Part shown: positions 9,357-31,494 of the stretch, piece by piece
Layout of the letters: each line of letters starts with the position of its first letter
Numbering within the stretch: position 1 is the stretch's first letter
Source of the DNA: a virus
Length of the DNA: 41,614 nucleotides
Strand: one strand, 5' to 3'
Virus record (IMG/VR): IMGVR_UViG_3300029893_000023
Span: 1 to 41,614 of that record
Notes under the pieces: model-generated
Database searches by the model: none
What the model saw: the letters and a program-made list of their open reading frames with translations, nothing else
What the model was told of the DNA's origin: nothing
Position numbers and translations under genes: made by a program

Positions 9357-12300
9357 ATGTCCCGCCTCCTCGAAGCGTCGGACGCGCTCGATAAGGGTTA
9401 TATCTCGAAGGAGGAGTACGCCAAGATCGCCCTGGATGAAGGGGCGATCACTCAGGACGAGTACGCGACGATCGTCCCGCAGGCACAGCCGGCGACTCCA
9501 CTGACTACGAGACTGTCCGATGTTGCGTCTGCCGCCGCCGGACAGATCAAAGGCGCGGCCAAAGCGGTTGGAGAGGTCGTTCGCAGGCCGTTCGAGACGT
9601 TCCGAGCCCAGGCTTCCGAGGTCGTTCCGAAGATCGCGGAGACTCGTATCCCCCTTCTGGCGGAAGCGCAGGAGCGGAAGGAGCAGGCCTTCGGAGATGC
9701 GGCCGAGCAGATGTTCGCGGACGTGGACAACCCCGTCACGCAAGCCCTGCGGCTGAGACTGGCCCGATACGGGATCGAGCCCGAGACCGTTGTTGGAGCC
9801 GGCATGGCCGCGGCCGAGCTCGCCACCGGGTTGCCCAGGACAATCGGAGAGGCGACGGTTATGGCCGCCCTGCCGGTTGCGGCCAAGGGGGCCGCGGTTC
9901 TAGGGAACCGAGTTCCTGTCCTTGGAGCAGAGATACCGGAGCTCTCCCAGATCCCTAATGCGATTCGGAGAGCCTTGGGGCGCCCGGAGGTGGCCGAGGT
10001 CATCCCTTCTGGCCGAACACCGTTCACCGAGACCGTACCGCCAGCCGAGCCGGCTGCCCCTGTGGCGCAGGCGGCGATTCCGGGGCCGGCGCCCCGTCCG
10101 GCCCTCCAGTCTCCGGCGCCGCGCGCCTCCCTACCTCTTCAGCAGCCGGTCCGCGGGGAAGGGTTCGAGATCGTTCCAGAAGCGCCTCGCCGAGTCTTCC
10201 AGCCGGCCCTGGGCGAAGTGGACGTGATGGCTCAACCATCCGATCCTCTCGCTGCCGTGGCCCGCCGATTGGGGCTACCTGAACCGCCCGCGGCACCGCC
10301 TCCCCGCGGCCGAAAAGCAAAGCCCGCGCCTGACCCCTCCGCTCCCACGCCGGAGGTGGTGCAGCCTCAGGCGCCCAAGCTCACCAAGAAGGCCGCCAAG
10401 GACCTGGCGGCTGACCCCGAGGCCGTCAAGGACCCCGCCAAGGTGGACCAGATCGTCGCCCTGGTAAAGGAAGGGAAGGCCTCTGAAGCGCAGATCAAGC
10501 GGTGGACGACGGACCTTAATCTCCAGTACCAGCGCGCCGCTCGGCGTAAGGACGGGGGTGCGAGACAGGTCTACCGCTCCGCTTTGGAACGCCTGGGCAT
10601 CAAGCCGATCGAACCCGTAGAAGACCTTCCGCCTCTGCCAACCCAGTCGGTGAAGGCCCAGATGCAGCAGGCCGCGGAGCCTAGGCCGGCCGCGCCCCAG
10701 GCGCCGGACCTGGCAGCGCAAGCTGGCAAGCCGCTCTGGAAGATGACGCCGGAGGAGTTTCGGAAGCAGTTTCCAGAAGCAGACCCATCCGCCCACAAGG
10801 AAGCGGTCCGGGCCGCGCTCGACACTGAGGAAGTACCGCTTGAAGTAGCTGAATCCTATCCGGACCTGATCCAAGAGGTTCAGTCTCGGCTCGAAGCCAA
10901 CGCCGCCAAGGAGATCGCCGCCGCGCGCGGAGGGCAACCAACTCCTGTCCTCTCGCTGATCCGCAAGCGCGGCCTCGACCCGGACAAGTTCAAGGCCGCC
11001 GCGGAGCTCGGGGAGGTCGAAAATCTGAAGGGGAAGCCCGTATACTGGCGCAAGGGAGGTCTTGGCCCGGACGAGCTCGCGGAAGCCGCTTACACCGAAG
11101 GCCTGATCCCAGACTACGACAAGAACTTCGCCTATGAGGCGCTCAATCATGAGATCACCAAGGGCGCCCCTCGATGGGAACCAGGTCTGACGCATGACAC
11201 ATCCTTTGTGGACCGAGCTGGTCAGGGCGGCTTCGTTCGCCCACCTGGAACCGCAGCCTCCTCAGACTCCCCTGACGTGCGCGCCTACAAGTCCCGGATT
11301 CGGAAGTTCGAGCCGGAAAAGCGCACTCTGAAGCAGACGGCTGAGGAGCTGTTCACTCAGGTCATCGACAAGAACAACCCCATCTACAACCTGGCCGAGC
11401 TCGCCAAAGGCCAGCCAAGGGATAAGGTTCGCTGGACCGCCGCTCGGTACATGGGGACCGGGGGAACCGCGGAACAGTGGCTCATCAACCGCACAACCCG
11501 ACTGAAACCTGACGGGACGGTGGAGATCACCGGAGAAGGCCTGCAGCCGATCGTGCGAGAAGTCGTTCAGCGCCTTGGCCCGGACGCCTTTGAGGACCTA
11601 AAGGCTTACATGCTCGCGCAGCGCGACATCGAGATCAAGCTGAACCGCGACATCCGCGGCCTCGACCCTGAAAAGGCCCCTGCTGTAGTCCGCGACCTCG
11701 ATGCGAAGTACGGGGGAAAGCTGGAGCCCTACGCCAATCGCGTCCGCGCTTGGACTCGGCGGGCGATCCTCGACACCCTATTAGACGCAGGAGTTCTCGA
11801 CAAGGCCGCTGTCGATCGAATCACCAGGCTCAACCGAAACTACATCCCTTATGACCGCGTAATCGACTCCCTCGATCCCGAGGGAGCCGCTAGATTCGCA
11901 CCAGGCTCGCCGATCAAGCCGCTCAAGGGCTCCGAGCGCGACGTATACGACCCGTTCCCTAGACTCATCGCTCTGGCCTACCGCACCGCCGAGTTCGCCG
12001 ACCGAAACCGCGTCCTACGGGCCGTCATCGACCTGAAGGACGCCAACCCAAAACTGGCCGGGATCATCACGGAGGCCAAAGGCTCCGGAGGAAACGCCCG
12101 GCGAGTGTTCATCGACGGCAAGAAGCGTTACTTCACCGTCCCTCCGGATGTCGCCTCGGCCCTGGACAACCTCCAGACCCCGGCCATGGACCTGGTGACC
12201 AAAATCCTTGCGTTTCCAGCCACGATCCAGCGAGCCGGCGTAACGCAGCATCCGCAGTTCTCCCTGATCCGCAACCCCATTCGCGATCAGCTCACCGCGG

Positions 12301-13889
12301 CGATTCACTCTAAGTATGGGTACGTGCCGGCCGTGGACTTCGCCAGGGGACTATTTCACGCCCTCCGCCGAAGCGACCTATACGAAGAATACATCGCCTC
12401 CGGCGGAGCGAACGCCGCCATGGTGGGGATGGACAGGCAGAATGCCGCGGTCACGCTCCGGAAGCTGGCCGGTCTTCGTGAACTGGATTCGGTCAACCCG
12501 ATCAACTGGCTTCAGCAGCTCAGCCACATGGGCGAGGTTGGGACCCGAATGGGAGTCTTCGCGCGCGCCAGAGCCAAGGGCGCCAGCCCACTCGAAGCCA
12601 TGTTCGAGTCGAAGGAGGCCACGGTCAACTTTGGCATCAAGCCCGCCAGTCAGGCGATCCGGTTCCTCAACTCCATCACCGCTTTCCAGCGCCCGGCCGT
12701 CCTCTCAGCGGCAAGGTTCTTTCGGGCGTACAAGGAGGCTCCGGGGCGGACGACGATGCGCGCCGCTTCTCTCGTCACTCTGCCCTCCCTTGCCCTTTGG
12801 TACCTCAACAAGGACGACAAGGAATACAACGAAATCCCGCTGTGGCGCCGAAACCTGTTCTGGCACGTCAAGCCGATGCGGTTCCTGCCGCCCGAAGCGC
12901 GAGAGAAACTGTCCAAGACCGAGCTGGCCTTCCTGGACAGCTACATCGAAATCCCCAAGCCCTTCGAGTACGGGATCCTGTTCGGCTCCAGCGTCGAGCG
13001 TCTCCTGGAATGGGCGCAGAAGAAGGACCCCAAGGCCGTCGAGGCGCTTGGGAAGTCGGTGCTCGACGCATTCTCTCCGCCAATCGTGCCGACCAACATC
13101 AGCCCTCTCATTAGCGCGAGAGCCAACTTCAACCATTTCACCGGCCGGCCGATCGTCCCGAAGAGTCGGGCTCATCTTCTGCCGGCGGACCAATTCGGCG
13201 AGTACACGACCGAAACTGCCAAGGCGATCGGGCGGCGACTGAACTATGCCCCTTCTAAGATCGACTTCCTGGCCCAGGGGTACGCTGGCACCGCCGGGCG
13301 CCTGGCCTTTCAGGTGTCCGACGCGATCATGCGCCGCCTTGGCGGGCCAACCTCCCCGCGGCCCCAGGTTCCGCTCGCCGACAGCCTCGTCGCCCGCAAG
13401 CCCATTGGTTCGCAAAGCGAGAGCGTCAATCGCTTCTACGACATCCTCGACCAGCTCGAACGGGAGCATGCTTCCGCCAACGAGCGCCTCGGCCTCCCTG
13501 GTGCCAGGATGCCGACCCCGCCGCTTCTGGAGCATCTCCGCCAAGCAAACGAGGAGATACACAAGCTCCGCGAAATGAACAAGGCCGTGGTGAACGTCAG
13601 CACCGCGCCGGACGAGGAGCGCCGTAGGGTCATCGACCAAAACAACCTCGCCATCACCACGATCGCTCAGAACGCGCTTCAGGCGGCTCGGAATCCAGGG
13701 CTGAGCGATCCCGGCGCCGACATCGAGCACCTTTTTCGGGCGAATCAGGTTCAGCGGGGAATGGACGAGCTGCGGTCGCTTCCGATTGAGGAGCAGGCCG
13801 CGCTCCTACAGAAGTGGAACAAGAGCGAGGCCGGGCAGGCCATCCTGGGTCAGATCTTCGCCGAGCGCCGCCGCCGAGGAGAAGATTAA
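9357..13889 (+). CDS. Giant polyvalent ejection protein with LPD38-like domain
   Basis: The product is 1510 residues. N-terminal 40 residues are a short repeat of YISKEEYAKIALDEG type (two copies). Residues 200-350 are Pro/Ala-rich linker. Near 480-505 is HKEAVRAALDTEEVPLEVAE then SYPDL, and near 532-586 a GLGPDELAE segment; both small modules recur in phage polyvalent proteins. Residues about 840-1180 match the large polyvalent-protein domain LPD38: NYIPYDRVIDSLDPEG, FSLIRNPIRDQLTA, then FNS-ITAFQRP-type helices and LPSLALWYLNKDDKEYNE. Known polyvalent proteins are packaged and injected with DNA. No lytic transglycosylase or protease motif was seen. Confidence 0.65.
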   Translation: MSRLLEASDALDKGYISKEEYAKIALDEGAITQDEYATIVPQAQPATPLTTRLSDVASAAAGQIKGAAKAVGEVVRRPFETFRAQASEVVPKIAETRIPLLAEAQERKEQAFGDAAEQMFADVDNPVTQALRLRLARYGIEPETVVGAGMAAAELATGLPRTIGEATVMAALPVAAKGAAVLGNRVPVLGAEIPELSQIPNAIRRALGRPEVAEVIPSGRTPFTETVPPAEPAAPVAQAAIPGPAPRPALQSPAPRASLPLQQPVRGEGFEIVPEAPRRVFQPALGEVDVMAQPSDPLAAVARRLGLPEPPAAPPPRGRKAKPAPDPSAPTPEVVQPQAPKLTKKAAKDLAADPEAVKDPAKVDQIVALVKEGKASEAQIKRWTTDLNLQYQRAARRKDGGARQVYRSALERLGIKPIEPVEDLPPLPTQSVKAQMQQAAEPRPAAPQAPDLAAQAGKPLWKMTPEEFRKQFPEADPSAHKEAVRAALDTEEVPLEVAESYPDLIQEVQSRLEANAAKEIAAARGGQPTPVLSLIRKRGLDPDKFKAAAELGEVENLKGKPVYWRKGGLGPDELAEAAYTEGLIPDYDKNFAYEALNHEITKGAPRWEPGLTHDTSFVDRAGQGGFVRPPGTAASSDSPDVRAYKSRIRKFEPEKRTLKQTAEELFTQVIDKNNPIYNLAELAKGQPRDKVRWTAARYMGTGGTAEQWLINRTTRLKPDGTVEITGEGLQPIVREVVQRLGPDAFEDLKAYMLAQRDIEIKLNRDIRGLDPEKAPAVVRDLDAKYGGKLEPYANRVRAWTRRAILDTLLDAGVLDKAAVDRITRLNRNYIPYDRVIDSLDPEGAARFAPGSPIKPLKGSERDVYDPFPRLIALAYRTAEFADRNRVLRAVIDLKDANPKLAGIITEAKGSGGNARRVFIDGKKRYFTVPPDVASALDNLQTPAMDLVTKILAFPATIQRAGVTQHPQFSLIRNPIRDQLTAAIHSKYGYVPAVDFARGLFHALRRSDLYEEYIASGGANAAMVGMDRQNAAVTLRKLAGLRELDSVNPINWLQQLSHMGEVGTRMGVFARARAKGASPLEAMFESKEATVNFGIKPASQAIRFLNSITAFQRPAVLSAARFFRAYKEAPGRTTMRAASLVTLPSLALWYLNKDDKEYNEIPLWRRNLFWHVKPMRFLPPEAREKLSKTELAFLDSYIEIPKPFEYGILFGSSVERLLEWAQKKDPKAVEALGKSVLDAFSPPIVPTNISPLISARANFNHFTGRPIVPKSRAHLLPADQFGEYTTETAKAIGRRLNYAPSKIDFLAQGYAGTAGRLAFQVSDAIMRRLGGPTSPRPQVPLADSLVARKPIGSQSESVNRFYDILDQLEREHASANERLGLPGARMPTPPLLEHLRQANEEIHKLREMNKAVVNVSTAPDEERRRVIDQNNLAITTIAQNALQAARNPGLSDPGADIEHLFRANQVQRGMDELRSLPIEEQAALLQKWNKSEAGQAILGQIFAERRRRGED

Positions 13890-14316: not shown

Positions 14317-14345
14317 CTGGCATAATGTGCATCTTCTGCTATAAT
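14317..14345 (+). promoter_or_regulatory. Rightward extended -10 promoter
   Basis: CTGGCA (14317-14322), a 17-nt spacer and TATAAT (14340-14345), with TGC directly before the -10 (extended -10). A second TGGCATAAT at 14318-14326 overlaps the -35. Transcription should start near 14352, feed the structured RNA and probably the early operon from 14545. Confidence 0.65.
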
Positions 14346-14351
14346 GGCACA

Positions 14352-14490
14352 GAGAGCACTGATCCCTCGCGATGGCGACCACCAGCACCGCTTTAAGGCA
14401 GAGGAACGGTATGAGCCGGAAGGCAGCAATGCCCCGGCCGGCAAAATCCTCGCGAGGGATCAGGCCTAACGTCCTCTGCCTTCGATTTTA
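14352..14490 (+). ncRNA. Predicted pseudoknotted small RNA or leader
   Basis: Perfect inverted repeats cross each other. Stem A is 14359-14371 with 14451-14463 (13 bp, CTGATCCCTCGCG and its complement). Stem B is 14395-14405 with 14472-14482 (11 bp, AAGGCAGAGGA and its complement). The order A-B-A'-B' makes an H-type pseudoknot. Between B and A' lies a hairpin at 14415-14438: GCCGG, bulge AA, GGCA, GNRA loop GCAA, TGCC, CCGGC. ACCG/CGGT (14387-14390, 14407-14410) would close the loop that carries B. A short T-rich stretch follows. It lies directly downstream of the extended -10 promoter. Function unknown. Confidence 0.55.
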
Positions 14491-14544
14491 CACCACCGTC
14501 ACACCAACCGCAATCCGTAAATCCGCAGTGCCCCGGAGGCTCGC

Positions 14545-14826
14545 GTGAAACTCCCGGATACTTCCAGAATCCGGTCCCGCCTTTATGCGGAGTTGGTCGA
14601 GGACGCGCTGCAGATGCGCGGCTGGACAAAAGCCGAGCTCGCGGAGCGCGCTAGCGAAGTAGCGCAAGACCTTGGGATGGACCTAACCGTGTCCGCCGAA
14701 CAGGTCTATCAGTACCTTGAACGCCCCCGGGACGCCCGCGCCGGATTCGCCAAACTGATCGAATGGACCCTGGGGATCAACCTCCCTCCGAGCTGCTATC
14801 TGAACGCCGGTAAGAGGGCCGCGTGA
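14545..14826 (+). CDS. Helix-turn-helix regulator
   Basis: The product is 93 residues with GTG start behind CCGGAGG. Residues 14-60 (ELVEDALQMRGWTKAELAER through QVYQYL) have the spacing of a Cro/CI-type helix-turn-helix. It is the first gene after the rightward promoter and structured RNA, the place of an early regulator in temperate phages. It is GTGA-coupled to the excisionase-like gene. Whether it represses or activates cannot be told. Confidence 0.55.
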   Translation: MKLPDTSRIRSRLYAELVEDALQMRGWTKAELAERASEVAQDLGMDLTVSAEQVYQYLERPRDARAGFAKLIEWTLGINLPPSCYLNAGKRAA

Positions 14827-16005: not shown

Positions 16006-16206
16006 ATGGCGAACGCTCTGTTTGCGAACGGTCCCTTGGTCGGCAAGGTGAAGGAGTTTGGTGTCCTCCCTTGGCAGATCGACGCAACCGCCTACGAAGC
16101 GCCTGGCGAGCTCATCGCGCCGCCCGTCGTCCGCTACCGAGCTATCGCATGGACCGAGGACAGGCGCCTCGGAATCTACTGGACGTTCAACCGGAGACAC
16201 CCCTAA
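16006..16206 (+). CDS. Hypothetical protein, 66 residues
   Basis: The ATG follows the hairpin with no obvious ribosome site; an in-frame TTG at 15970 lies inside the hairpin. The product contains WQIDATAYEAPGE and YRAIAWTEDRRLG, a small beta-rich protein. Its stop overlaps the nuclease start (TAATG). Unrecognised. Confidence 0.45.
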   Translation: MANALFANGPLVGKVKEFGVLPWQIDATAYEAPGELIAPPVVRYRAIAWTEDRRLGIYWTFNRRHP

Positions 16207-17231
16207 TGCCCAGTCAGCTCGAAAACCCCATCGTCGATCAGCTCTGCGACGAGATCATGAAAGCACGGACCGAAGACCTGGAGCGCCGGGCCAAGGAACG
16301 GCCCCAGGAGAAGCGCGAGTACCTTTACTTGTCCGACCTGTCCCCCTGCACCCGGTTCATGTTCTACAGCCTTACGGCCGGCGATCAGCGCAAGCCCTTC
16401 GACGCTTACGTTCAGGCGATGTTGGACGAGGGAACCAGGATGGAAGATCGGATCGCCGCGCAGCTCGCGGAGCTCGGCTTCCGGGTCGTTGAGAAAGACG
16501 TTCCGGTTGAGATCCGAAACCGCAAGGGGGAGCTCGTCGCCCGCGGCCGGATCGACGGGAAGATCCTCTACAAGAAAGCCCGCATCCCCATGGAAGCGAA
16601 GATGCTGTCGCCCAACATCTTCGACCGTCTCAACACCGCCGAAGACCTATTCCGCTTCCACTGGACCGAGAAGTATCTTCGGCAGCTTCTGTTCTACCTG
16701 TACGGCTTCGGCGAAGAGCAGGGGTTCTTTCACCTTAACGACGGCCGGGGTCATTGGAAGGTCGTCCCGGTCTACCTCGGGCAGTACTTGGACTACGTGG
16801 AGCGGACCCTGCAGCGGATGGAAGCCGCCTTCGAGGCCAAGAAGTCCGGTCAGGCGCCCGAGCGCATCCCCTACGACCATAAGCTCTGCGGCTCCTGTGC
16901 CTTCAACGCCATCTGTCTTCCGACAACGGTGATCGAGGGCGGAGAGACTCTCAACGACCCGGACGTGGAGGCCAGGATCGCCCGGCATGAGGAGCTCAAG
17001 CCGATGGCCTCGGAGTACGACGACCTTCACGACTCGCTCAAGGAGTTCTTCGCCGGCAAACCGGCCGTCACGGTCGGGGGGCGGTTCATCATCCACCCGA
17101 AGAAGACCGCTCGGCAGTCCTATGACTACAAAGCCCTCGGCCTTTCCAAAGACGACCTGGAGAAGATCAAGAAAACCACGGTCTCCTGGGGCTTCTCCGT
17201 TGAGGACGTGACCAAGAAGGGGGGCGCGTGA
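16206..17231 (+). CDS. Cas4/RecB-like PD-(D/E)XK nuclease with Fe-S cluster
   Basis: The product is 341 residues. Core motifs: Cys48 in SPCTRFMFY; Glu76 to Glu80 helix; RIDGKI with Asp117; MEAKM with Glu130 and Lys132 (D...ExK). At the C-terminal side, Cys228, Cys231 and Cys237 in LCGSCAFNAIC complete a four-cysteine 4Fe-4S site as in Cas4 and AddB nucleases. Such enzymes resect DNA ends with 5'-3' polarity. Between the conserved DYGVIPG-type protein and a resolvase-like gene, it likely works in phage recombination or replication. No cas1/cas2 or CRISPR array is near, so this is not an adaptation Cas4. Confidence 0.75.
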   Translation: MPSQLENPIVDQLCDEIMKARTEDLERRAKERPQEKREYLYLSDLSPCTRFMFYSLTAGDQRKPFDAYVQAMLDEGTRMEDRIAAQLAELGFRVVEKDVPVEIRNRKGELVARGRIDGKILYKKARIPMEAKMLSPNIFDRLNTAEDLFRFHWTEKYLRQLLFYLYGFGEEQGFFHLNDGRGHWKVVPVYLGQYLDYVERTLQRMEAAFEAKKSGQAPERIPYDHKLCGSCAFNAICLPTTVIEGGETLNDPDVEARIARHEELKPMASEYDDLHDSLKEFFAGKPAVTVGGRFIIHPKKTARQSYDYKALGLSKDDLEKIKKTTVSWGFSVEDVTKKGGA

Positions 17232-17356
17232 GCCACATCGCCGGAATCTTCTCCCGCCGCGCGCCTAAGGGTATCCGGCCGGAGATCGAAAAAGTCCTCA
17301 AAGCCTTCGACGCCGCCACCCAGGCCGCGATCGAGAAGGAGAAAAAGAAGAAGTGA
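17228..17356 (+). CDS. Small basic protein, 42 residues
   Basis: GTG start in a GTGA overlap with the nuclease stop. The product has an amphipathic helix (GIRPEIEKVLKAFDAA) and a lysine-rich end (EKEKKKK). It is the last coding sequence before the large structured RNA. Function unknown; a nucleic-acid-binding helper is possible. Confidence 0.5.
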   Translation: MSHIAGIFSRRAPKGIRPEIEKVLKAFDAATQAAIEKEKKKK

Positions 17357-18200
17357 TCACTTCCCGCGCGACCATGGGTCCAGGAAAGCCGTCGTACATG
17401 CGGCCTCCCACTCGCTCCGGTGTCCTGGGGACCGGAGCCGCGCGGTTGATTTTGCAGTCGATCGGAAGCGCTGTTGAGCGCAGCGGCTCCCCTGGCAGGG
17501 GGCGGGGGCGAGGTGTTCGATTCACTGGCCCCGGCCGTTCAACTACCGATCGACTGCTTCCTTTGGACCCTGCGGGCCGCTGTGATGTAGCGGGGCGTGA
17601 GGCGGGGATGTCGGCTATGACAACCGCCCTCGCACAAGACCAGGCCGACTGGCTGCCGGTTGGAATCCGGCCAGGGTCCTTAGTTTTGGGGTTGGCTCCC
17701 AGCTCGTTGGATGAGCGCAAGGCCTACGTCCCGACGGGGGCGTGTCCGCGACGGCGGGCGAACGATGCGGTACGTGTCTCGGGTCTAACCCGGGCGCCCC
17801 GCATCCGATTTCGGCAAGCGCGTAATGGCGGGGTAACAAGCGCATCCGAGGGCTGGAGTAAAGGCCCGCTTGAGTTAGACACGGCGACCATGGTGTCTCG
17901 AAAACCCTGGCGCCGTGCAAATTTTGGACCGGGCAACGCCTGCGCTGCGACCCGGGGGTTTGGGACAGACAAAGCGGCGAGCCGTTTAGAGACAGCGGTC
18001 GGAGAGGCTGACGACAAAAGCCGGAGACGAGGAACAGTGGCGAGGCGAAGCCAACCACGGAAGACCTTAGTCCCCTCTCCCGTAGCGACGATTTCGGGCG
18101 TCTAAGCGCCCCGGAAAGCCGGAGTCGAGACGTAGTGGTGTCTCAGCACCTAGGGCAGGGTTTGTCCCAAACAGAATGCGCTTTGTGTCTCTTGGGAGGC
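17357..18200 (+). ncRNA. Large ornate structured RNA candidate, about 800 nt
   Basis: An 840-nt stretch without credible protein coding but dense in perfect stems. Paired segments: 17414-17421/17431-17438 (8 bp); 17454-17465/17546-17557 (12 bp) enclosing 17468-17472/17477-17481 and a T-loop-like hairpin at 17513-17525 (GTG TTCGATT CAC) inside 17505-17509/17528-17532; 17565-17572/17672-17679 (8 bp) with 17577-17581/17589-17593; 17726-17732/17737-17743; 17764-17770/17799-17805; 17877-17882/17893-17898; 17929-17933/17951-17955; 18037-18040/18055-18058. Size, phage context and T-loop recall GOLLD and ROOL RNAs, but no sequence match can be claimed. No own promoter was found. Confidence 0.6.
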
Positions 18201-18203
18201 GGA

Positions 18204-18440
18204 ATGGCAAAGAAGACGTTGACGATAGACAACCCGGGCGTCGTGATCGCATCCAACGTCCCCGGGAAGCTGGTCCTCGATTTCAACGAGTTCGGAGAGG
18301 GCGGGGTAGTCACGAAGCGAGCCCGCATCCGGTTTACGACCTGGGACATTCGAGTGCTGGCGGAACAGCTCGCGCGCGGCCTGAAGGCTCAACGCCGCTG
18401 GCTGGACGAGATCGACCTTGCCTTCAAGACAACCCCATGA
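18204..18440 (+). CDS. Hypothetical protein, 78 residues
   Basis: ATG chosen at 18204 because GGGAGGCGG lies just upstream; the frame is open further 5' into the structured RNA. The product is a small beta-alpha protein (VVIASNVPGKLVLDFNEFG, then FTTWDIRVLAEQLARGL). Similar short proteins occur in phage early regions with no known role. Confidence 0.55.
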   Translation: MAKKTLTIDNPGVVIASNVPGKLVLDFNEFGEGGVVTKRARIRFTTWDIRVLAEQLARGLKAQRRWLDEIDLAFKTTP

Positions 18441-20320: not shown

Positions 20321-20776
20321 ATGAACCTTATCCCGATCGGTGACAACATCATCGTCCGCCCGCTGCCCCGAGAGAAGAAGCTGGCCTCAGGCCTCATCAT
20401 CCCCGACTCCGCCAAGCGCCCCCCAATGATCGGCGACGTGCTCGCCGCCGGCCCCGGGCGCCACACCGAGACCGGCGCCCTGATTCAAAACCCGGTCAAA
20501 GCCGGCGATCGAGTAGCCTTCCATCGCTTCGCGGGAACGGAGGTAAAGGTCCGAGAGAACGAAGAGCCGGTTGTGATCATGTCCATGCACGATGTGCTCG
20601 CCGTGATCGAAACCGCCCGCAAGCCTTCTGCGCTGGCGGAGCACGTCCGCGAAATCGCCGGATCGCTGTCCGACTCCGGCCAGCCCGCCTACGTTCAGGA
20701 GCTCGCCAAGGCCGCTCTGAGCCTGGCGGAGCAGTACGAGATCCTCAGGATAGGTACGGAGGCGGCAAATGTCTGA
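20321..20776 (+). CDS. groES: Phage GroES-like co-chaperonin
   Basis: The product is 151 residues. Residues 1-97 match the Cpn10 fold: IPIGDNIIVRPLPREK, a mobile-loop region (KKLASGLIIPD), GDVLAAGPG, VKAGDRVAFHRFAG, and the final VVIMSMHDVLAVIE. Co-chaperonins cap host GroEL; phage versions such as T4 gp31 help fold the capsid protein. Residues 98-151 are an extra helical tail absent from bacterial GroES, possibly tuning host GroEL. It lies in the early region and carries its own leader after a terminator-like hairpin. Confidence 0.85.
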   Translation: MNLIPIGDNIIVRPLPREKKLASGLIIPDSAKRPPMIGDVLAAGPGRHTETGALIQNPVKAGDRVAFHRFAGTEVKVRENEEPVVIMSMHDVLAVIETARKPSALAEHVREIAGSLSDSGQPAYVQELAKAALSLAEQYEILRIGTEAANV

Positions 20777-21826: not shown

Positions 21827-22495
21827 ATGATCGTCACCAAAGAAGCTCTTGAGAAGTCCGACGCTTGCGCCGAAGGTAAGGCCTGGGGTCTAGAAACCCT
21901 GAACCTAAAAGGCGGTATCGAGGCAAAGAAGCTCTGGCCCAAGTTCGACCGCGCTGATTGGTTGATGTGGGCGCTGTGGCATACCGAGAGCGTCAACATC
22001 GAGCAGCTAATCATGCTTTCAGTAGTGACGGGGCGCTTGTCGCTTAAATACGCGAGGAAAGAGGATTTGCCAGTGCTTCAAGTCGCCTTCGATGCGGCGG
22101 AAGCCGTAGCGCGAGAGAATACCCAAGCCAATAGGTCGGCGGCGTGGTCGGCGTGGTCGGCGGCGTGGTCGGCGGAGTCGGCGGCGAGGTCGGCGTGGTC
22201 GGCGGCTTCGGCGGCGGCGAGGTCGGCGGCGAGGTCGGCGGCGTGGTCGGCGGCGTGGTCGGCGTGGTCGGCGGCGAGGTCGGCGGCGAGGTCGGCGGCG
22301 GAGTCGGCGGAGTCGGCGGCGAGGTCGGCGGAGTCGGCGGCGAGGTCGGCGGAGTCGGCGGCGTGGTCGGCGTGGTCGGCGGCGTGGTCGGCGGCTCACA
22401 AAGAAATGTGCGCTATGATCCTGGCCGAAATGAAGAAACCTTACTTCAAAAAGCTCGGGAAGCCCACCCGCCAAGACCGCGATGGGAAGAAATGA
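21827..22495 (+). CDS. Protein with hypervariable Ala/Ser repeat tract
   Basis: The product is 222 residues; start after GGGAGGAAAG. Residues 1-100 form a globular helical domain (LKGGIEAKKLWPKFDRADWL, EAVARENTQANRS). Residues about 104-190 are repeats of AAxSA and AxSA, where x is Trp, Arg or Glu. A 30-residue basic end follows (EMKKPYFKKLGKP). The repeats should make a long amphipathic helix or solenoid edge. Similar repeat proteins are widespread in phages and hosts with unknown role. Stop overlaps the next start. Confidence 0.55.
   Translation: MIVTKEALEKSDACAEGKAWGLETLNLKGGIEAKKLWPKFDRADWLMWALWHTESVNIEQLIMLSVVTGRLSLKYARKEDLPVLQVAFDAAEAVARENTQANRSAAWSAWSAAWSAESAARSAWSAASAAARSAARSAAWSAAWSAWSAARSAARSAAESAESAARSAESAARSAESAAWSAWSAAWSAAHKEMCAMILAEMKKPYFKKLGKPTRQDRDGKK
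22136..22395 (+). repeat. GTCGGC-rich tandem repeat tract
   Basis: About 260 nt of degenerate 6-, 9- and 12-nt units built on TCGGCG with GTG, GAG or AGG interruptions. Nearly all copies use identical codons, so the array is expanding or contracting at DNA level. It codes for the Ala/Ser repeats in one frame and Val/Gly repeats in another. Confidence 0.85.
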
Positions 22496-30315: not shown

Positions 30316-30491
30316 GCCCGCACCCCGACACGCTCGCGCAGCTCCGCCACCAGGGCGCCGCCCGAAGGCCGCGCAAAGACCCGCTCGCGCGCCTTCCAAG
30401 CGCACGACGGGCCGCACGTCCAGCCCAACAGCCCACGACAGCCCCGCGCGCCATCCGCGCGCGTCACCACGACCTCACCACGTACCGCCAT
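30312..30491 (-). CDS. Hypothetical protein, first gene of the leftward module
   Basis: The product is 59 residues; start ATG at 30491 follows GCGGGAGGTCGC. It has an N-terminal strand pair (VRGEVVVTRADGARGCRG) and a CGPSCAWKAR segment. It follows a leader RNA with a terminator, so its expression may be attenuated. Unrecognised. Confidence 0.45.
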   Translation of the reverse strand: MAVRGEVVVTRADGARGCRGLLGWTCGPSCAWKARERVFARPSGGALVAELRERVGVRA

Positions 30492-30513
30492 TGCGACCTC
30501 CCGCCCCGTCGAG

Positions 30514-30616
30514 GGGCAAAAAGAAAGACCCAAGCGCCCCCTGTGGCTCCCTCGCCCGTTTGGGCGGGTAGCAGCGCGCTTGGGTCTAAATGCCGTCGGT
30601 GCGAGGGCCACAGGGT
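30514..30616 (-). ncRNA. Leader RNA with intrinsic terminator and crossing stem
   Basis: Read leftward from the promoter at 30623-30631. Stem A: CCCTGTGGCCCTCGC (complement of 30601-30615) pairs with 30539-30555 apart from a 2-nt bulge. Stem T: 30576-30587 pairs perfectly with 30526-30537 (12 bp, AGACCCAAGCGC), followed by TTTCTTTTTG, an intrinsic terminator. An inner hairpin is CGCCC/GGGCG with loop AAAC (30553-30566). The order A-T-A'-T' allows a pseudoknot or two exclusive folds. It may be a terminated small RNA or an attenuator for the leftward operon. Confidence 0.6.
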
Positions 30617-30622
30617 GCGCTA

Positions 30623-30631
30623 AGTATAGCA
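30623..30631 (-). promoter_or_regulatory. Leftward extended -10 promoter
   Basis: On the minus strand TGC TATACT (extended -10) lies at 30631-30623. No good -35 at 17 nt; TTGCGT at a 20-nt spacer is the nearest. Transcription would begin near 30616, the exact start of stem A of the leader RNA. Confidence 0.5.
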
Positions 30632-30706
30632 CACGATAGTGCACGACGACGCAAAGCAGCGCTCCCGACGGGAAAGCGCCCCGAATGCGTGTCAAGGCCC
30701 AAGAAT

Positions 30707-30830
30707 GCGTCAGGCCGCGTCAGAGGCCGGTTCGCTCAGACGGGAATGTAATCTTTTCGGAGGGGCCAGGTCCTACATTTCGATCAGCGCGCGTCAGCGT
30801 AAGCCAGCGCAGAAGTCAGCGCGACCAGCG
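30707..30830. repeat. Iteron-like repeats
   Basis: GCGTCAG occurs at 30707, 30717 and 30791. CAGCG occurs five times at 30785, 30795, 30805, 30817 and 30826, spacing 10, 10, 12 and 9 nt, close to a helical turn. GAATGCGT is repeated at 30683 and 30703. In the intergenic region between divergent operons, this could be an origin or operator array. Confidence 0.5.
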
Positions 30831-30984
30831 CCGCGCCTTGCCGGGAGGCCGCTAGCTGGCCCAGGACCGGCCCGCCCTTGCCCCAGGACGAGCCGGGCGC
30901 CGCGATCCGCCCCAAGCCCCGACCCGCGCCCCGCGCGCCTCCTGCGCGATCCTGGGGCCATTCGCGCGCGATCCTGTAGCGCAA
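30784..30984 (-). CDS. Doubtful leftward ORF across the repeat region
   Basis: TTG start without a ribosome site; frame open further upstream to about 31060. Codon third positions are strongly GC, as in real genes here, and the end (QGAALVALTSALAYADAR) looks protein-like. The CAGCG repeats fall in its last codons. May be a gene, a remnant, or chance. Confidence 0.3.
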   Translation of the reverse strand: MRYRIAREWPQDRAGGARGAGRGLGRIAAPGSSWGKGGPVLGQLAASRQGAALVALTSALAYADAR

Positions 30985-31074
30985 CTGGGGGTAGGGGGTA
31001 CGATCCGGCCTTTTGAACGCCTGTTCAGTAAGCCCCCGCCGTAAGGACCCTAGAAGCCATGGGTAAGGCAGGGA

Positions 31075-31195
31075 AGCCAGGCCCGGGGCAGGGCTAGGGA
31101 GTGGGAGGGGAGCTGGGGGAAGGGGGCCGGGGTGACGTAGGGCAGGGAGGCAGGGGAGGGGCGGAGAGGGGGGAGGAGGAAGGGGCGAGGGTGGC
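31075..31195 (+). repeat. G-rich tract with quadruplex potential
   Basis: About 120 nt with more than a dozen runs of three or more G (for example GGGAGTGGGAGGGG and GAGGGGGGAGGAGGAAGGGG). The strand is strongly purine-biased. No gene is visible at 31000-31459 other than low-complexity frames. Confidence 0.6.
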
Positions 31196-31459
31196 GAATG
31201 AAGCCATCAGGCCCGGCGGTCCTCCGGCTCGAAATTCCGCCCGGCCTCCGGCCCCGGCCTGGTCCGGCCGATCCCGTCCGCATCCCGCCAGCCCGCAGGG
31301 TCGGACAATACGCCTAAGGCGACACGCCGCGCGTTGGCGGGCTTCTCGCGCGCCCCCGCCGCGGCCCGCTCGCGTGGGACTCCGACGGGGACCCCCCGGG
31401 CGGCCCTCTGGGTCCCATCATCAACCTGACTTGGACGGTTTTGAAAATCTTTTTCCGGC

Positions 31460-31488
31460 TTGACACAAAAAATTTCCTGCGCTAATAT
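31460..31488 (+). promoter_or_regulatory. Consensus sigma70-type promoter of the late operon
   Basis: TTGACA (31460-31465), 17-nt spacer, TAATAT (31483-31488). Transcription should start at about 31495, the first base of the GTG of the next ORF. It is the best promoter in the window and sits upstream of all packaging and head genes. Confidence 0.85.
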
Positions 31489-31494
31489 CAGCGC

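Follow-up and report, generated by a model that had tools for sequence, protein, structure and literature searches.

The window analysed here, 41,614 bases in length, is a complete IMG/VR virus record and belongs to a phage with a portal protein of podovirus type (PHROG 156), an integrase and a GroES. Only remote relatives were detected for the proteins of this phage, at about 25-30% for its Cas4 and about 25% for its terminase, and its capsid protein was distant (27-31%) from the capsids of Arthrobacter, Microbacterium and spring-water phages. A packed operon was found on the + strand, in which adjacent genes mostly overlap or lie no more than 11 nt apart; one gap in it, at 17357-18203, measures 847 nt, compared to a maximum of 41 nt for the others. 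Its limits are a TGA codon (17354-17356), immediately before it, and the ATG at 18204, immediately after it. It is preceded by the genes for a 290-aa protein and a Cas4/RecE-like exonuclease and by a 42-codon ORF, and it is followed by a 78-aa gene and then by more small genes. The elements concerned are the following:

16206-17231, + strand: upstream gene for the Cas4/RecE-like exonuclease (PHROG 1706 and 1990)
17228-17356, + strand: upstream 42-codon ORF with a GTG start and a coding score of 0.70 bits/codon
17357-18203, + strand: non-coding segment, proposed structured RNA, with no codon periodicity and negative coding scores in every frame
18204-18440, + strand: downstream 78-aa gene of no assigned function, with a coding score of 0.38 bits/codon and the RBS GGGAGG

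No promoter or terminator of its own was found for the segment, and the closest promoter-like site on its 5′ side is located at 14317-14345. This site is of the extended -10 type (CTGGCA-17-TATAAT with TG), and the leader directly after it, through 14545, contains a perfect 14-bp inverted repeat (14359-14372/14450-14463) crossed by an 11-bp one (14395-14405/14472-14482). The 14317-14545 stretch, for which no Rfam match was obtained, is possibly a leader, structured or attenuating, for the operon to which the non-coding segment belongs. The GroES gene (Cpn10, PF00166, E 1.5e-22) lies in the same operon downstream of the segment, at 20321-20776.

Several other features of the record were noted. 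A 1510-aa protein with an LPD38 polyvalent-protein domain (PF18857, E 1.3e-37), related to proteins of Pelagibacter and Bacillus megaterium phages, is encoded at 9357-13889, and a gene at 21827-22495 carries a long repeat tract of the Ser-Ala-Ala-Trp/Arg type with a strong local G-over-C skew. A second long region with no sign of coding, about 1.2 kb in length and with a G+C content of about 70%, is present at 30316-31494; in it lie an inverted repeat of 12 bp (30526-30537/30576-30587) and a promoter-like TTGACA-17-TAATAT (31460-31488) that faces the structural genes.

The G+C content at codon positions 1, 2 and 3 was flat in the segment (.64/.66/.64), whereas it differed between positions in the exonuclease gene (.64/.40/.81) and in the 78-aa gene (.61/.42/.80). 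The ORF at 17353-18105 scored -0.10 bits/codon, compared to +0.38 to +0.40 in these two genes, and sliding coding scores in six frames stayed at or below about zero throughout the segment. The translations of the three largest frames of the segment had no PHROG match, the 17353-18105 frame had no related contig in IMG/VR or GTDB, and the minus-strand frame had no relative in IMG/VR. Codon-level conservation of the 17353-18105 frame, which would contradict an RNA reading, was sought in IMG/VR and GTDB and was not found. A protein-coding gene was thus rejected by the flat codon-position G+C, the negative score and the lack of homologous proteins in IMG/VR, GTDB and PHROG, and 17357-18203 is, with high confidence, non-coding. 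The earlier proposal of a non-coding, folded stretch lacking plausible coding capacity within a phage operon is supported.

Relatives were searched for in IMG/VR with the Cas4, the capsid, the terminase, the 78-aa protein, the 17353-18105 frame, the minus-strand frame and two DNA patterns as queries, and further by GTDB scans and by blastn of phages and plasmids. No homologue of the segment was detected in IMG/VR, in GTDB or by blastn of phages and plasmids, collections from which records very close to the window may have been missing; they yielded chance matches of 18-45 nt, the majority of them located in coding genes. Among five matches of 18-38 nt that were inspected, four fell within coding genes and the fifth extended no further. 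The part of domain 2 (see below) comprising the variable arm and the T-arm gave a 38-nt match of 89% (E 0.02) to coding DNA on a megaplasmid of Streptomyces, a match most likely due to chance. One remote Cas4 relative was recovered, and its Cas4 neighbourhood was packed with ORFs. A 2.2-kb unannotated gap of the distantly related phage MW202801 was also considered as a counterpart and discarded, being filled with ORFs and giving no RNA match.

When the region was compared by cmscan with all 4,227 Rfam families, just one chance match was obtained (HOTTIP_3, E 5.9), and no aptamer family was found. Group I and group II intron models gave no match at E≤10, the group II model RF01998 also being run singly, and tmRNA was not detected by ARAGORN or Rfam. 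The sequence-only reading had put forward GOLLD and ROOL as the closest known types, with possible membership. GOLLD RNAs are phage-borne and non-coding, many of them exceed 800 nt, some carry a tRNA in a linker region, and their 3′ region is described as universally conserved (PMC12286853); ROOL is a large non-coding RNA of phages, often close to tRNA islands (PMC12286853). The segment is similarly large (about 0.8 kb, as in GOLLD), phage-borne and non-coding, but the GOLLD model (RF02032) did not match it at E≤10 and its conserved 3′ region was not recognised. The ROOL model (RF03087) did not match it at E≤10 either, a negative that leans mainly on the cmscan since control genomes were also unmatched by this model. 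tRNA genes, which often lie near ROOL and are frequent beside or within GOLLD although not required there, were not found in the record by ARAGORN or by the tRNA model RF00005 (E≤10), so that the supposed tRNA association did not hold. The segment also differs from GOLLD in being embedded in an operon after an exonuclease gene, and from ROOL in its predicted organisation as a string of separate domains. The best reading is that it resembles GOLLD and ROOL in size and setting, without membership.

The global folding of the segment was ordinary. The whole region gave z values of -1.7 to -2.2, and its best local value (-3.98 in a 110-nt window) ranked 8th of 27 equal-length stretches of the genome, most of which are coding. 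Pairing entropy and the unpaired fractions of A, G and T were similar to those of shuffled sequences, with only C being more paired, so neither A-enrichment of loops nor pairing entropy gave a signal of structure in the segment. The energy of the whole region was lower on the + strand than on the - strand (-396 vs. -356 kcal/mol), a difference due largely to base composition, because the z-scores of both strands were about equal. Moreover, five perfect inverted repeats of at least 12 bp exist in the record, several of them within other gaps. Therefore, the presence of at least ten stems, which had been taken as a mark of an ornate RNA, is to be expected of about 850 nt at 64% G+C. The case for structure rests instead on domain 1, the T-loops, the layout of domain 2 and the absence of coding. 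The elements of the predicted fold are listed below, with z values that are favoured by the choice of taking the domain limits from the fold itself:

17454-17557, + strand: domain 1, with a 12-bp closing helix; z -4.8, 0 of 200 shuffles folding as well
17565-17679, + strand: domain 2, a tRNA-like cloverleaf in which MFE and centroid structures coincide; z -2.8, 0 of 200 shuffles
17687-17868, + strand: domain 3, multibranch with several 5-7-bp arms and 11 G-U pairs; z -2.5 to -3.1
17880-17917, + strand: domain 4, a hairpin with the 7-bp base CACGGCG/CGCCGTG; pairing probability 1.0
17958-18172, + strand: domain 5, multibranch, containing inverted repeat I6; z -2.6, 1 of 200 shuffles
18194-18199, + strand: Shine-Dalgarno GGGAGG of the 78-aa gene, predicted to pair with 17360-17365 (probability 0.81)

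The 12-bp helix that closes domain 1, already pointed out in the sequence-only reading, proved to be exact (17454-17465/17546-17557), and a helix as long within 150 nt was found in just 0.25% of dinucleotide-shuffled regions (P 0.0025). Inside it are a hairpin at 17468-17481 and a T-loop hairpin with the canonical loop UUCGAUU (17516-17522), as in tRNA. Domain 2, which lies 7 nt further on as a second cloverleaf-like unit, consists of an 8-bp acceptor-like stem (17565-17572/17672-17679), three hairpin arms, one of them similar to a variable arm, and a 5-bp T-arm (17655-17671) with the loop UUGGAAU. This T-arm, with its 7-nt loop, abuts the acceptor strand and would stack on the acceptor-like stem, and the order of the arms is that of a tRNA with a variable arm. 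The same T-arm/acceptor layout was found in 132 of 20,000 shuffled regions (P 0.0066), in a test that was defined post hoc. Differences from tRNA are also clear, as the middle arm of domain 2 is overlong and has no 7-nt anticodon loop, the acceptor is of 8 bp, there is no CCA and position 56 of the loop is a G; neither ARAGORN nor the tRNA model detected the domain. On the + strand, two T-loop hairpins with a stem of at least 4 bp were counted where 0.11 would be expected (P=0.005); their loops start at 17516 and 17660, and the - strand of the segment has none. Thus, there are two such hairpins, and not the single T-loop-like one proposed before.

Domain 3 folded well on the + strand and not on the other (z -3.1 vs. 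+0.5), whereas domains 1 and 2 folded nearly as well on the - strand relative to shuffles. The area of domain 4 (17880-17957) gave a z of -1.6, and the closing stem of domain 5 (17958-17970/18160-18172) had 12 of 13 positions paired, 10 of them consecutive plus two more. An alternative pairing of the Shine-Dalgarno region, of 18193-18200 with 17403-17410, corresponds to inverted repeat I4.

The non-coding status of the segment, its position in the operon, its helices and its T-loops are established as sequence features. The explanation that we favour, tentatively and at somewhat less than even confidence, is that 17357-18203 may be a functional structured RNA of about 0.8 kb, embedded in the operon, read from the + strand and acting in trans; its transcription, processing, stability and function are inferred. 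The segment would be co-transcribed with the operon, for which 14317-14345 is the nearest promoter-like site on the 5′ side, and would fold into consecutive domains, each closed on itself, of which the first two with a strong fold are cloverleaf-like and carry T-loops. The RNA could then be excised from the operon transcript, for instance through cleavage by RNase P or another enzyme of tRNA processing at the putative acceptor/T-arm stack of domain 2. Once excised, it would be stable and might work in trans, serving as a GOLLD/ROOL-like scaffold or as a decoy that attracts tRNA-binding factors of the host. Such a structured RNA is favoured by the lack of coding signal amid a packed operon, by the P values of the helix, the T-arm/acceptor layout and the T-loops, by the z values of domains 1, 2 and 5, and by domain 3, with its 11 G-U pairs and its fold on the + strand only. 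Against it stand a global folding that is ordinary for this genome, the lack of a homologue and of an own promoter or terminator, the folding of domains 1 and 2 on the - strand too, and the post hoc nature of the T-arm/acceptor test.

The segment could also lack a present function, being filler or a remnant that was inserted or has long since decayed, such as perhaps a degenerate cluster of tRNAs. The lack of homologues and the global folding within chance agree with this, as do two tRNA-like units only 7 nt apart in an array-like order. However, phage genomes rarely retain that much filler (0.8 kb) between the genes of an operon, the segment has no residual codon periodicity, its domain helices are intact rather than decayed, and neither the tRNA model nor ARAGORN detected anything in it, making a remnant an unlikely explanation.

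Next in rank, and improbable as well, is a long cis-acting leader, in which the 5′ end of the segment (17360-17365 or 17403-17410) would mask the Shine-Dalgarno sequence at 18194-18199 and control translation of the 78-aa gene, or else an internal element for mRNA stability or processing. The segment is immediately 5′ of this gene, and the predicted Shine-Dalgarno pairing and the second anti-Shine-Dalgarno match are consistent with such a switch. Nevertheless, long-range matches of 8 bp over such a distance are near chance level in the region, 800 nt far exceeds the length that such a switch needs, and no aptamer family of Rfam is present.

The inverted repeats could instead act in double- or single-stranded DNA, as part of a replication origin or of a recombination or packaging site, a reading suggested by the strong 12-bp inverted repeat, the adjoining recombination exonuclease gene and the folding of domains 1 and 2 on both strands. 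We consider it quite improbable, as the segment has no iterons, AT-rich stretch or GC-skew turn and the record no DnaA box, and the domain 3 fold and the T-loops are confined to the + strand.

A self-splicing intron, placed between the two neighbouring ORFs or within them, is very improbable. It is suggested by a direct repeat (AAAGAAGAAGT/AAAGAAGACGT, at 17344-17354 and 18209-18219) on either side of the segment, which is read in the same frame in both ORFs, so that removal of the segment would fuse them. The absence of group I or II matches in Rfam at E≤10, the own RBS and ATG of the downstream gene, and the lack of any phage homologue or PHROG match for the fused protein speak against it. 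Finally, membership in GOLLD or ROOL, despite the size, the phage genome and the tRNA-like units, can practically be dismissed, given that neither covariance model matches at E≤10, even with a GOLLD 3′ region that is described as universally conserved (PMC12286853), and that the record has no tRNA genes.

Returning to a functional structured RNA acting in trans, a more specific and rather unlikely version of it is that the segment represents a class of large phage RNAs not described before, with several tRNA-like modules, which would be freed from the transcript of an operon by tRNA-processing enzymes and would serve as a scaffold or act as a decoy for host factors directed at tRNA. Just a handful of very large structured phage RNAs are known, and GOLLD and ROOL are without an established function. 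If this version were true, an unrelated RNA with tRNA-like modules in an operon of recombination genes would show that the large RNAs of phages have more than one origin, and would make the processing or the mimicry of tRNAs a theme worth testing.
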